From the NCBI RefSeq assembly GCF_016862575.1, contig NZ_BONF01000031.1:1-64000 (forward strand): a stretch of 64,000 nt of DNA, in the 5' to 3' direction. The DNA comes from Catellatospora bangladeshensis. GTDB lineage: Bacteria; Actinomycetota; Actinomycetes; Mycobacteriales; Micromonosporaceae. Shown piece after piece: positions 34,671-37,806 of the stretch. The position numbers and the translations under genes are program-made. The notes beneath the pieces are model-generated. The model saw only the letters and a program-made list of their open reading frames with translations. It was not told the DNA's origin and did not search any database. Every line of letters starts with the position of its first letter. Position 1 is the stretch's first letter.

Positions 34671-35756
34671 ATGACCGTTCTGCTGCTCATAGGCACCGCC
34701 AAGGGACTGTTCCTGGCCCGCCGCGACCGGGTCGGGGACTCGTGGGACATGTCCGTGCCCCAGTTCCCGATGACCGCGGTGTACTCCGTCGGCATCGACA
34801 CCCGCCGCGCCACCCCGCGCCTGCTGGCCGCCGTGGACAGCTCGCACTTCGGGCCGAGCGTGGCCACCAGCGACGACCTGGGCGCGTGCTGGCGCGAGCC
34901 CGATCACGCCCCGGTCGCGTTCCCGCAGGACACCGACACCGCGCTCGGCCGGGTGTGGGCGCTGCAGCCCGGCGCGGCCGCCGAGCCCGACGTGGTCTGG
35001 GCCGGCACCCAGCCGTCGGCCCTGTTCCGCTCCACCAACGGCGGCACGTCGTACGAGCTGGTCCGCAGCCTGTGGGACCACCCGCAGCGCACCGAGTGGG
35101 GCGAGGGCTTCGGCGGCCAGGCGATCCACACGATCCTGCCGCACCCGACCGACCCGCAGCGGGTGCTGGTGGCGATGTCCACCGGCGGCGTCTACCGGAC
35201 CACCGACGGCGGCGAAAGCTGGCACCCGTCCAACACCGGCATCCGGGTCAGTTTCATGCCCGACCCGTTCCCCGAGTTCGGCCAGTGCGTGCACAAGGTG
35301 GCCCGCGACGGCGAGGACCCGGAGCGCCTCTACCTGCAGAACCACCACGGCGTCTACCGGTCCGACGACGACGGGCAGACCTGGTCGTCGATCGCGGACA
35401 CCCTGCCCAGCGACTTCGGCTTCCCGATCGTGGCGCACCCGCGCCGCGGCGGCACCGCGTGGAACTTCCCGCTGAGCGCCGACGCGCTGCGCTTCCCCGT
35501 CGACGCGAAGTGCCGCGTCTTCCGCACCACCGACGCGGGCAAGACCTGGACCCCGCAGGCGTACGGCCTGCCCACCGCGCCGTTCTACCCGTCCGTGCTG
35601 CGTGACGCGATGACCGTCGACAACGGCGACCCGGTCGGGGTCTACTTCGGCACCCGCACCGGCGAGGTGTTCGCCAGCGCCGACGAGGGCGACAGCTGGG
35701 CGCTGGTCGCGGCGCACCTGCCCGACGTGCTGTGCGTGCGGGCGGTCCGGCTCTGA
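34671..35756 (+). CDS. BNR/sialidase-like repeat protein
   Basis: 361 residues, ATG 34671 after GAGG. Several Asp-box repeats are visible: SDDLGACW, STNGGTSYE, TTDGGESWHPSN, SDDDGQTWSS, TTDAGKTWTPQ, SADEGDSWA. This marks a beta-propeller. There is no signal peptide and no sialidase catalytic set, so it is probably a cytoplasmic propeller of unknown role. Its stop overlaps the ATG of the MoaD-hotdog gene (TGATG), and such propeller and MoaD-like genes are neighbours in other actinobacteria as far as I recall, so the products probably act together. Confidence 0.85.
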   Translation: MTVLLLIGTAKGLFLARRDRVGDSWDMSVPQFPMTAVYSVGIDTRRATPRLLAAVDSSHFGPSVATSDDLGACWREPDHAPVAFPQDTDTALGRVWALQPGAAAEPDVVWAGTQPSALFRSTNGGTSYELVRSLWDHPQRTEWGEGFGGQAIHTILPHPTDPQRVLVAMSTGGVYRTTDGGESWHPSNTGIRVSFMPDPFPEFGQCVHKVARDGEDPERLYLQNHHGVYRSDDDGQTWSSIADTLPSDFGFPIVAHPRRGGTAWNFPLSADALRFPVDAKCRVFRTTDAGKTWTPQAYGLPTAPFYPSVLRDAMTVDNGDPVGVYFGTRTGEVFASADEGDSWALVAAHLPDVLCVRAVRL

Positions 35757-36442
35757 TGGTGACCGTGCTGGTGCCGGGCGCGCTGCGGACCGAGGTCGGC
35801 GGCGAGTCACGGCTGGAGGTGCAGGCGGGCGGTACGCTGCGCGCGGTGCTCGACGAGGTGGACCAGCGCTGGCCCCGCCTCGGCCGGCGCATCCGCGACG
35901 AGCGCGGCGAACTGCGCCGGTACGTCAACGTGTACGTCGACGGAGAGGACTGCCGGGTGCTGTCAGGTCAGGAGACGCCGGTCGTGGGCGGCGCGGAGGT
36001 GCAGGTGCTGCCGAGCGTCGCGGGCGGCAGCGTGGCCGAGGAGGCGCCCGTGCTCGACGGCGACCGCATCCTCGCCGACAACTTCGCGCCCTGGGTACGC
36101 GAGCTGGGGCTGACCGTCGAGGAGACCGGCGCCGACTGGGCGACCCTGCGCCTGCCCTGGTCGGACCGGCTCGCCCGGGAGGGCGGCGCGCTGAGCGGGC
36201 AGGCCCTGATGGCGGCGGCCGACACCGCCACGGTGATCGCGATCAGCGCGGCCCGCGGCGGCTTCGTGCCGATGACCACGGTGCAGTTGTCGACCACGTT
36301 CCAGCGCCCCGTGCTGGGCAGCGACGTGCTGGTCACGGCCCGGCTCACCAAGCTGGGGCGCTCGATGGCCTTCGCCGACATCACCATGACCGCCAAGGGC
36401 CAGCTCGTGGCCCAGGCCACCACGGTGTACGCCCTGCTCTGA
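35756..36442 (+). CDS. MoaD/ThiS-like domain fused to a hotdog thioesterase domain
   Basis: 228 residues from ATG 35756, which overlaps the propeller stop. Residues 1-91 form a beta-grasp sulfur-carrier domain (MVTVLVPGALR to VQVLPSVAGG). It has a Gly-Gly at 90-91 exactly where free MoaD proteins end. Instead of a stop, the chain continues through SVAEEAPVLDGDRI into a complete PaaI/4HBT-type hotdog domain (about 100-228) with GGALSGQALMAAADTA and TTVQLSTTFQRPV. No frameshift is needed. The fusion could be processed after Gly-Gly or use the first domain only as a scaffold. A sequencing error joining two genes is possible but less likely, since both domains are intact in one frame. Confidence 0.85.
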   Translation: MVTVLVPGALRTEVGGESRLEVQAGGTLRAVLDEVDQRWPRLGRRIRDERGELRRYVNVYVDGEDCRVLSGQETPVVGGAEVQVLPSVAGGSVAEEAPVLDGDRILADNFAPWVRELGLTVEETGADWATLRLPWSDRLAREGGALSGQALMAAADTATVIAISAARGGFVPMTTVQLSTTFQRPVLGSDVLVTARLTKLGRSMAFADITMTAKGQLVAQATTVYALL

Positions 36443-36452
36443 CAGTGAGGAT

Positions 36453-36581
36453 GTAGGAGCGGTCACCCGGTTGTCTGACTCTTGCTCTGACTGACGACTG
36501 CTGTCCTCTGCCGGATTCGTCGACTGTCCGGGTGACCGCTCCTGCACGCCACCAGCTGGGCATTCGTGACCTTATAGGAGC
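36453..36581 (+). ncRNA. Structured 5' non-coding end of the IS, candidate bridge RNA region
   Basis: TGTAGGAGCGGTCACCCGG (36452-36470) is complementary, with one mismatch, to 36528-36546. Further on, CTTATAGGAGCC (36571-36582) resembles the right end CCATAGGAGC. IS110-group elements of the IS621 type make a guide (bridge) RNA from this position. One segment complementary to the left end and one identical to the right end would suit a donor-binding loop. The same stem could instead be a terminator of the upstream gene. Confidence 0.35.
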
Positions 36582-37746
36582 CTGTGCGAGAGGCCCCGTC
36601 ACTGTCCTGTCCGCCCGTCCGGCGGGTGCGTGCCGACCCTGTTCGGTGCGAGCGAAAGGGACGACGAGTCCAGCATGGCAGCCAAGAAGCGCCCGGTCAC
36701 GGGCGGGATAGACACCCACGGCAAGACCCACCACGCCGCTGTCGTCGACCAGACCGGCCGCGTATTGGGAGATCAGCAGTTCCCCGCCACCCCGGCTGGC
36801 TACCGGGCACTACTGGCCTGGCTCCGCTCGTTCGGGCGGGTAGCCAAGGTCGGTGTCGAGGGCACCGGCACCTACGGCGCCGGGCTGGCGCGCTACCTGA
36901 CTGGCGAACGCGTCGACCTGGTCGAGGTCGACCGACCCGACCGCAGGACACGCCGCAGCAAGGGCAAGTCAGACCCGATAGACGCCATCGCCGCAGCACG
37001 AGCTGCGCTGTCCGGACAGGCCGCCGGCACGCCCAAGACCCGCACCGGGCCGGTCGAGGCGATCCGCGCGCTGCGAGTGGCCCGCCGCGGCGCGGTCAAG
37101 GCTCGCACCGCGGCGCTCAACCAGCTCCACGGCCTGATCACCTCCGCGCCTGAGACGGTGCGTACCGGCCTGGCCGGGCTGCCCAGATCCGCGATGGTCA
37201 CCGCCTGTGTCGACCTGACCGTCGATGAGACAGTCATGACTGATCCGGTTCACGCGACGCGCGCCGCGCTGCACGCGATCGCGACCCGGATACAGGCACT
37301 CGACGCCGAAATCGCCCTCGCCGACCGGCGGCTGCGCCCAGCGGTGGCCAAGACCGCTCCACGCCTGAGCGCGTTGTTCGGCGTCGGCCCCGAGGTCGCC
37401 GGGCAGCTGTTGGCCACCGCCGGGGACAACCCCGACCGGCTGCGCTCCGAAGCCGCGCTGGCCCACCTGTGCGGCGCAGCCCCGATCCCGGCCAGCTCAG
37501 GGCGCACCGACCGTCACCGTCTCAACCGCGGCGGTGACCGAGCCGCCAACAACGCCCTCTACACGATCGCGCTCACTCGCATGCGCTACGACCCACGCAC
37601 CCGCAACTACGTGCAACGACGCACCAAACAAGGCCTGGCCAAGATAGAGATCATGCGCTGCTTGAAGCGCTACATCGTCCGCGAGGTCCACGCCGCACTC
37701 ATGGCGGATTTCGCCGCCCTGAACACCGCTTGACTTCCATAGGAGC
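36454..37746 (+). mobile_element. IS110-type insertion sequence, approximate limits
   Basis: One DEDD transposase gene with ~220 bp of upstream and ~13 bp of downstream non-coding sequence. TAGGAGC occurs at 36454-36460 and 37740-37746. Joining the flanks at one copy recreates GGATG-TAGGAG-CATCC, a small palindrome, so TAGGAGC may be the exchange core. A third TAGGAGC at 36575 gives a shorter alternative (36574-37746). Ends are inferred, not proved. Confidence 0.6.
36675..37733 (+). CDS. IS110-family transposase
   Basis: 352 residues from ATG 36675; a GTG at 36630 would add 15 residues without the family start. The N-terminal RuvC-like DEDD domain shows D13 in GGIDTHGK, E62 in KVGVEGTGTYG, and D100/D103 in KSDPIDA. 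The C-terminal Tnp domain has GVGPEVAGQLLA (235-246), a Cys/Ala-rich LCGAAPIPASSGRT with the candidate catalytic serine S273 or S274, and the basic RHRLNRGGDRAANNALY. The gene looks intact. Codon usage is somewhat less GC-biased than neighbours, as expected for a mobile gene. Confidence 0.93.
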   Translation: MAAKKRPVTGGIDTHGKTHHAAVVDQTGRVLGDQQFPATPAGYRALLAWLRSFGRVAKVGVEGTGTYGAGLARYLTGERVDLVEVDRPDRRTRRSKGKSDPIDAIAAARAALSGQAAGTPKTRTGPVEAIRALRVARRGAVKARTAALNQLHGLITSAPETVRTGLAGLPRSAMVTACVDLTVDETVMTDPVHATRAALHAIATRIQALDAEIALADRRLRPAVAKTAPRLSALFGVGPEVAGQLLATAGDNPDRLRSEAALAHLCGAAPIPASSGRTDRHRLNRGGDRAANNALYTIALTRMRYDPRTRNYVQRRTKQGLAKIEIMRCLKRYIVREVHAALMADFAALNTA

Positions 37747-37806
37747 ATCCGGCCCCGCCCGCGGGCGACGAGCCCAGCCATCCAAAAACGAAGTCGAGCC
37801 GAGCCG

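Follow-up and report, generated by a model that had tools for sequence, protein, structure and literature searches.

The window analysed here, a stretch of 64,000 nt from Catellatospora bangladeshensis, carries an insertion sequence directly behind the stop codon of an uninterrupted gene, and the question it raises is where this element begins and ends, and whether the non-coding DNA to the left of its transposase gene specifies an RNA that reads both the landing site and the element's own ends. We consider it very probable that this is an IS110-group element moving by bridge-RNA-guided serine-DEDD recombination, on evidence visible at the level of sequence: the ends, the guides and their co-variation with the flanks, the co-variation of the target-loop stem, the promoter spacing, and the enrichment of insertions at stop codons. 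In the earlier note the element was already assigned to the IS110 group, and its left non-coding end was suspected of encoding a bridge RNA of the IS621 type; that idea, still a prediction, is strengthened by what follows. Coordinates are collected in Table 1.

Relatives were gathered in one scan of a genome collection (80 loci kept of 105 relatives) and are found in six of 11 genomes of the genus and 50 of 300 genomes of the family, the element's own genome included in both counts; 40 further stretches were added. The sequence common to copies at different sites runs from AGTGAGGATG (36444) to ATAGGAGCATC (37749), with a left-end consensus of AGTGAKGATG, and these relatives, together with the empty sites, set an insertion sequence of 1306 bp on the + strand; the core C stands at both 36443 and 37749, so bounds of 36443–37748 are equivalent. 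The ends had previously been placed at 36453 and 37746, which is off by 9 nt on the left and by 3 nt on the right, and homologous copies with ends elsewhere, named in the earlier note as grounds for rejection, are for the ends exactly what was found. The proposed terminal core, TAGGAGC, does occur at 36454 and 37740, and there is a 19-nt complementarity to the left part of the element, so that one might set the ends at TAGGAGC on both sides and take the arm at 36528–36546 for a long right donor guide that recognises the left end; against this, copies elsewhere carry AGTGAGGATG before that sequence and ATC after it, and the empty sites, which fit one shared C, already refute such ends. Given the true ends, excision would not recreate GGATG-TAGGAG-CATCC.

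The orthologous locus is without the insertion in all 10 congeners, where the host gene ends in CTCTGA (nine) or CTGTGA (one), followed by C in nine of the 10. The proposed single-C core rests mainly on another site, that of L149, where the insertion lies within a conserved gene and the spacing that one shared C would give is retained in 22 of 22 empty homologues. At L143 (one empty homologue) and L141 (two), a 1-nt gap nearby is needed for the single-C fit, and the empty homologues of L113, L140, L146, and L148 are too diverged to the right of the stop codon to decide the core. The reading frame across the insertion fits a single C in seven of 10 testable cases and a different shift in three. 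Two-base core units (AC/AT) were also considered and rejected, being off by one and giving frame continuity in none of the 10.

The element has 231 nt 5′ and 16 nt 3′ of its coding sequence, the long left end and short right end, free of long subterminal inverted repeats, that are typical of the IS110 group. The arrangement that defines the IS1111 group, a bridge RNA in the right end together with subterminal inverted repeats of 7–17 bp, is not seen, the right end being 16 nt long and the guides lying in the left end. The window element was found once in its own draft genome (115 contigs), with no other copy seen, and its activity is putative.

Two side observations concern the host locus itself. 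In the window, the reading frame at 35732–36442 fuses a ThiS domain (a ubiquitin-like sulphur carrier) to a 4HBT thioesterase domain. In the congeners L092, L094, L095, and L096, a long intergenic hairpin (e.g., CATAGACGCTGGCCTATTACATCGA and its complement) stands at the orthologous locus where the window has the element, and looks like a dispersed palindromic repeat.

Table 1. Features of the element and its insertion site, in window coordinates.
Feature	Positions	Strand	Basis
Host gene, ThiS domain + 4HBT thioesterase, 236 aa, uninterrupted	35732..36442	+	stop codon is the insertion point
Left target half after insertion, CTGCTCTGAC	36434..36443	+	TGA 36440–36442 is the stop codon of gene 35732–36442
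Whole IS110-group element	36444..37749	+	sequence common to copies at different sites; empty sites
−10-like box GAGGAT	36447..36452	+	17 nt after TTGACT across the RE–LE junction
5′ arm, target-binding-loop stem	36454..36470	+	inverted repeat, fold, arm co-variation in 36 sequences
Predicted bridge RNA, ~180 nt, two hairpin domains	36457..36637	+	fold; promoter position (putative start and end)
Left target guide (LTG) TTGCTCTGAC	36482..36491	+	9/10 identical to left flank 36434–36443
Right target guide (RTG) GCCGG	36510..36514	+	complementary to 37749–37753 (positions 9 to 13)
Target-loop handshake bases AT	36515..36516	+	complementary to donor positions 7–8 (37747–37748)
3′ arm, target-binding-loop stem	36528..36544	+	inverted repeat, fold, arm co-variation in 36 sequences
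Left donor guide (LDG) ATAGGAGC	36574..36581	+	identical to right end 37739–37746
Right donor guide (RDG) TCACTG	36599..36604	+	complementary to core C and left end (36443–36448)
Donor-loop handshake bases TC	36605..36606	+	complementary to target positions 7–8 (36441–36442)
DEDD/Ser recombinase (transposase), 352 aa	36675..37733	+	Pfam, alignment, profile match to structures
−35-like box TTGACT, overlapping the transposase stop codon	37730..37735	+	TTGAC hexamer position in junctions
Right target half CCGGC	37749..37753	+	window sequence; empty sites

The transposase is intact, as the earlier note had it, with a DEDD RuvC-like domain and a Tnp domain containing the catalytic serine, as in the IS110 group (Pfam DEDD_Tnp_IS110, E 2.5e-24; Transposase_20, E 1.5e-18). 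In an alignment of 12 transposases, that of the window included, D13, E62, D100, D103, and S274/S275 are invariant. A search of the PDB with the single sequence (phmmer) gave no match, while the profile of the 12 sequences matches IS621 (8wt6, E 2.2e-19) and ISCro4 (9t56, E 2.2e-18).

The claim that the 5′ non-coding DNA is structured holds, in that it folds better than most shuffled sequences: 36457–36637 is predicted to form two domains (z −3.44, none of 200 shuffles as good), and the longer segment 36454–36675 gives z −2.58 with two of 200 shuffles as good. Rfam returned no matches in the window at gathering thresholds. The left end contains an inverted repeat of 19 nt, 95% complementary, between 36452–36470 and 36528–36546. 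Because automatic consensus folding left the outer target-loop stem unpaired, the stem arms were compared one sequence at a time in 36 sequences (for L052 the script trimmed the arm too far). The sequence of this stem differs widely among them, yet partner arms fit each other, with 19.9 for a sequence's own arms vs 11.9 ± 0.6 for swapped arms and a maximum of 14.2 in 5000 shuffles. The stem of the donor-binding loop (DBL) is better conserved and its co-variation is weak (18.8 vs 17.0 ± 0.3, maximum 18.1). The predicted fold and the arm co-variation thus describe a left-end RNA with a target loop followed by a donor loop, the order of the IS110 group, the DBL stem co-varying weakly. In this predicted RNA, the 19-nt inverted repeat is the stem that closes the target-binding loop and not a donor guide: the complementarity of 36528–36546 to the left end, which had been taken for such a guide, exists, but the segment forms the 3′ side of the target-loop stem.

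A strong stem upstream of a transposase gene could, in principle, be a terminator or a translation-control hairpin and nothing more, with no guide RNA involved, and the earlier note had kept a simple terminator in view. We regard this as extremely improbable. The right arm is followed by TGCACGCC, with no T run; invariant or near-invariant blocks flank each guide; and the loop between the arms matches the flanks of the insertion far above shuffled expectation in 88 insertions, which is the very co-variation of guide and flank that speaks against a stem acting by itself.

The statistics behind that co-variation come from 103 of 153 oriented loci that could be parsed, the other 50 being truncated contigs, nested insertions, or divergent subfamilies; removal of weak parses (L069, L080, L086, and L136), of loci with flanks under 12 nt (L007, L024, and L137), and of eight duplicates left 88 insertions. 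The 10-nt left target guide (LTG) sits between the blocks TGACYC and YGRC, and the right target guide (RTG) stands directly before YYGTCG. As the parser required AC at the end of the LTG, a left-end template, and GAT/ATC at the RTG and right end, the guide statistics omit these forced positions, and the selection favours regular members of the family. At positions 2–7, the LTG agrees with its own left flank in 84, 78, 80, 85, 85, and 86 of the 88 insertions, with shuffled means of 47, 32, 23, 71, 46, and 75. Summed over the eight unforced positions there are 547/704 matches vs 329 ± 10 when the guides are reassigned at random between loci (maximum 369 in 2000 shuffles), and 261/336 vs 150 ± 7 when each distinct LTG is counted once. 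For the RTG, positions 10–15 give 242/462 complementary bases vs 140 ± 10 (maximum 172) in the 77 insertions with a right flank, and 108/198 vs 60 ± 6 with one insertion per distinct RTG. Both target guides thus co-vary with the target flanks, as is expected of the IS110 group.

Individual copies bear this out and also set its limits. The three copies in genome G089, close relatives with a protein 91% identical, have a single LTG base changed relative to the window (TTGCGCTGAC), and all three flanks carry the matching change. The window copy itself has one mismatch in the LTG, and its RTG pairs over just 5 nt; in L004, the closest named relative, the LTG fits the left flank and the RTG misses the right flank beyond ATC.

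The donor guides match the element's own ends, again as in the IS110 group. That the segment 36571–36582 copies the right end had been seen correctly, and we identify ATAGGAGC within it as the left donor guide (LDG); it is nearly constant among relatives, as is the right end. The right donor guide (RDG) is the hexamer TCACTG at 36599–36604, not the long arm proposed for it, and is followed by two more bases that pair with the target. The left end and the RDG change together (AGTG/CACT, TGTG/CACA, AGAG/CTCT, and TGCG/CGCA), with column pairs of UA 25, AU 7, and CG 2 in one case and AU 30 and UA 4 in another. Here the placement of the ends at TAGGAGC loses what support the hairpin gave it, since in relatives the stem sequence varies freely with its partner arm, mostly bears no relation to TAGGAGC, and it is another segment that co-varies with the true left end; we give that placement practically no credence and retain 36444–37749.

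With the core numbered 8–9 as in IS621, the target has G7 A8 C9 where the donor has A7 T8 C9, so that C at position 9 is the sole shared core base, with A in the target and T in the donor at position 8. The first parser demanded AC, and a reparse was therefore made without this requirement, in which flank positions 8–9 are AC in 84 of 85 cases and GC in the last, L056, whose LTG has GC as well. LTG endings of GG in L052, L053, L055, and L082 in this reparse are misreadings, while GC in the LTG of L034 opposite AC in its flank is a true mismatch. Donor position 8, likewise unforced, is T in 103 of 104. A CT dinucleotide common to target and donor, as in the IS110 group, is thus not present, the two sharing C at position 9 only. 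In IS621-type systems CT is reported as preferred and not strictly required (PMC11208160, PMC11208158), and the non-CT core therefore marks a variant and not an exclusion from the group.

The guides continue past the core in a way that reflects this asymmetry. In 75 of 87 insertions, the RDG core position is followed by a base that pairs with target position 7 (G–C, C–G, or A–T); nine have G opposite G, in the GGCAGAC group of Micromonospora, and three more are without a Watson–Crick pair. In the target loop, 98 of 104 rows have an RTG that runs on into the complement of donor T8 and A7, and co-changes are found, RTG GAA with donor TTC (L023) and RTG GAC with donor GTC (L074, L075, and L078). 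Six rows remain: L175 and L176 depart from the pattern, L080 follows it in part, and L050, L051, and L057 were misread by the script, in which GA of the RTG and C9 of the donor were preset; in these three GAC/ATC rows the main parse gives GAT. Hence the RTG and RDG pair at position 8 with the arriving strand and not with the resident one. In IS621, by comparison, every guide pairing takes in the CT core (PMC11208160) and the handshake bases reach positions 6–7 (PMC11208158). We infer that the arrangement at position 8 favours insertion over reversal.

A candidate promoter lies across the two ends. In 78 of the 81 elements with both ends, the right end has a TTGAC hexamer whose last base stands 14–15 nt ahead of the core C (of the other three, two are without TTGAC and one has it only further downstream), and in the joined circle sequence the hexamer would be followed after 17 nt by GAGGAT (38), GATGAT (25), GAAGAT (3), or a box related to these. 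Since the inserted element keeps the two halves some 1.3 kb from each other, this spacing makes sense for a circle, as in IS621, for which a promoter formed at the circle junction is described (PMC11208160, PMC11208158). Sequence and spacing together point to a promoter assembled at the junction, a feature of the IS110 group.

The landing sites have a pattern of their own. Target positions 6–8 are TGA, followed by the core C, in 60 of the 88 insertions, and by codon-position GC this TGA is the in-frame stop of an upstream coding region in 35 of the 60, vs 79 of 1076 background CTGAC sites, the background being flanking and empty-site DNA from the same relative searches. In a second classification, which required the right flank as well, 31 of 54 TGA insertions stand directly behind a stop codon, vs 86 of 1017 CTGAC sites and 134 of 1068 sites matching a 7-nt guide core (p 7e-14). 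The position could nonetheless be purely a survivor effect, recombinase and guides being indifferent to genes and harmless insertions persisting; gene hits do occur, as six of 78 classified insertions are intragenic (five of 54 in the TGA set), and the GGCAGAC, GGCGGAC, and CGAC subgroups use targets without TGA. The excess, however, persists when intragenic sites are removed from both sides (31 of 49 vs 134 of 642, p 1e-9). We put the pure survivor effect a little short of an even chance, and from these counts the enrichment may reflect survivor selection as well as guidance. A search of titles and abstract beginnings, with subscription literature mostly outside it, found no paper on stop-codon targeting by bridge RNAs.

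Some targets are repeated sequences. In the GGCAGAC subgroup, L008, L010, and L041 resemble one another over about 115 bp of left flank and have ATCGGGAT on the right, the target being a repeated host sequence. The immediate junction GGTCGRCGGCAGAC / ATCGGGATG is common to L123–L126, L155, and L157, and in the subgroup of L134, L138, L164, and L165, with LTG GACGGCGGAC or AACGACGGAC, insertion occurs repeatedly before ATCATCGCGGTAGC, another repeated target.

In some relatives the donor guide has itself become a target. A different IS110 element, encoding a recombinase of about 360 aa on the opposite strand, is inserted exactly inside the LDG ATAGGAGC. It is present with its full recombinase in all six loci kept from Streptomyces sp. 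I6 (L016, L017, L021, L036, L045, and L064) and in L039 (S. sp. 8L); both junctions are also seen in L018 (S. purpureus) and L033 (UBA8490), the copy there being shortened or partial, and one junction in each of L025, L044, and L046. In L240 the host is about 55% identical in its first part and the nested gene holds one stop; in L241 both LDG halves are present and a host recombinase was not detected. The loop of the nested element reads GCTCCT plus CTCATAG (I6), CTGATAG (L039, L046, and L241), or TTGATAG (L240), and fits the reverse complement of the host LDG over CTATGA (I6), CTATCAG (L241), CTATCA (L240), or just CTAT (L039). In L245 its target motif lies outside any such host element, so that the site seems to be set by a sequence match, not by the host element. 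From these matches the nested IS110 looks like a bridge-RNA element preying on another's guide. The search at E 1e-110 across the class found it in one of 394 genomes, and also in six plasmid records; in titles and abstract beginnings, subscription literature being mostly outside the search, no paper was found on an IS110 inserting in another's donor guide. L242 and L243 had been considered as cases in the donor guide of another IS and were rejected, no homologue of the window element's family flanking the nested element there. Separately, about 130 nt upstream of the transposase match in L013, the LDG reads TTATAGCTTGG, with four bases missing at the position that the nested element occupies in relatives; this may be a scar.

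For transcription, circle formation, and the energetics of strand exchange, we infer the following course. The element would excise as a circle with the predicted junction sequence ATAGGAGCATCAGTGAGG; joining of the right end to the left would put the −35 box 17 nt upstream of the −10 box, and the junction promoter would drive a bridge RNA of about 180 nt from the left end. The second domain of this RNA would bind the circle junction, the LDG copying ATAGGAGC and the RDG pairing with CAGTGA, and the top strands would be exchanged 3′ of the single shared C. As positions 7–8 differ (GA in the target, AT in the donor) and the RTG and RDG run into bases that pair with the incoming strand, this pairing should favour strand exchange, making the inserted state the best matched. 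The element would often come to rest just behind a gene's TGA stop and leave the gene intact, as in the window. It is possible, although we hold the idea only tentatively, that in this actinobacterial IS110 clade two features evolved jointly: target guides that read TGA-C and so spare the gene, and an asymmetric core (A8 in the target, T8 in the donor, one shared C) with RTG and RDG written to the post-exchange state, by which the RNA drives insertion and disfavours its reversal.

Bridge RNAs were worked out on IS621, with its symmetric CT core (PMC11208160, PMC11208158), and whether and how the same complex performs both excision and insertion is called unclear in a passage of PMC11208158. 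The present clade offers a natural case in which the core tells substrate from product and it is the product that the guides match, so that directionality becomes testable by changing one base pair. Guides reading TGA-C suggest ready-made landing sites at gene ends that spare the upstream gene, and the corrected anatomy allows guides to be read off about a hundred relatives from sequence.

Among known systems, the transposase of ISCro4 (PDB 9t56) belongs to the same protein family by profile match. In the seekRNA elements of IS1111 and IS110, an RNA from the non-coding region directs target choice for the same kind of recombinase (PMC11187229); the IS1111 seekRNA region is described there as usually downstream of the transposase, while that of the window element is upstream, the IS110-type position. 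Predicted bridge RNAs are also given for ISAar29 and five further ISfinder elements, three from each of the IS110 and IS1111 groups (PMC11208160, Extended Data Fig. 10 legend). The closest parallel is with IS621 as described in PMC11208160 and PMC11208158: a DEDD/Ser recombinase, a bridge RNA in the long left end, a target loop before the donor loop, and four guides, the domain order and paired guide layout being those given in PMC11208158. To this the sequences probably add handshake bases after RTG and RDG, a circle-junction promoter, and top-strand exchange 3′ of the core. The window copy differs in that no 5′ stem-loop is evident; and while IS621 carries CT in target, donor, and guides, the window element shares only C9 between target and donor, its RTG and RDG match the incoming base, and the targets of its clade are often the stop codons of genes.
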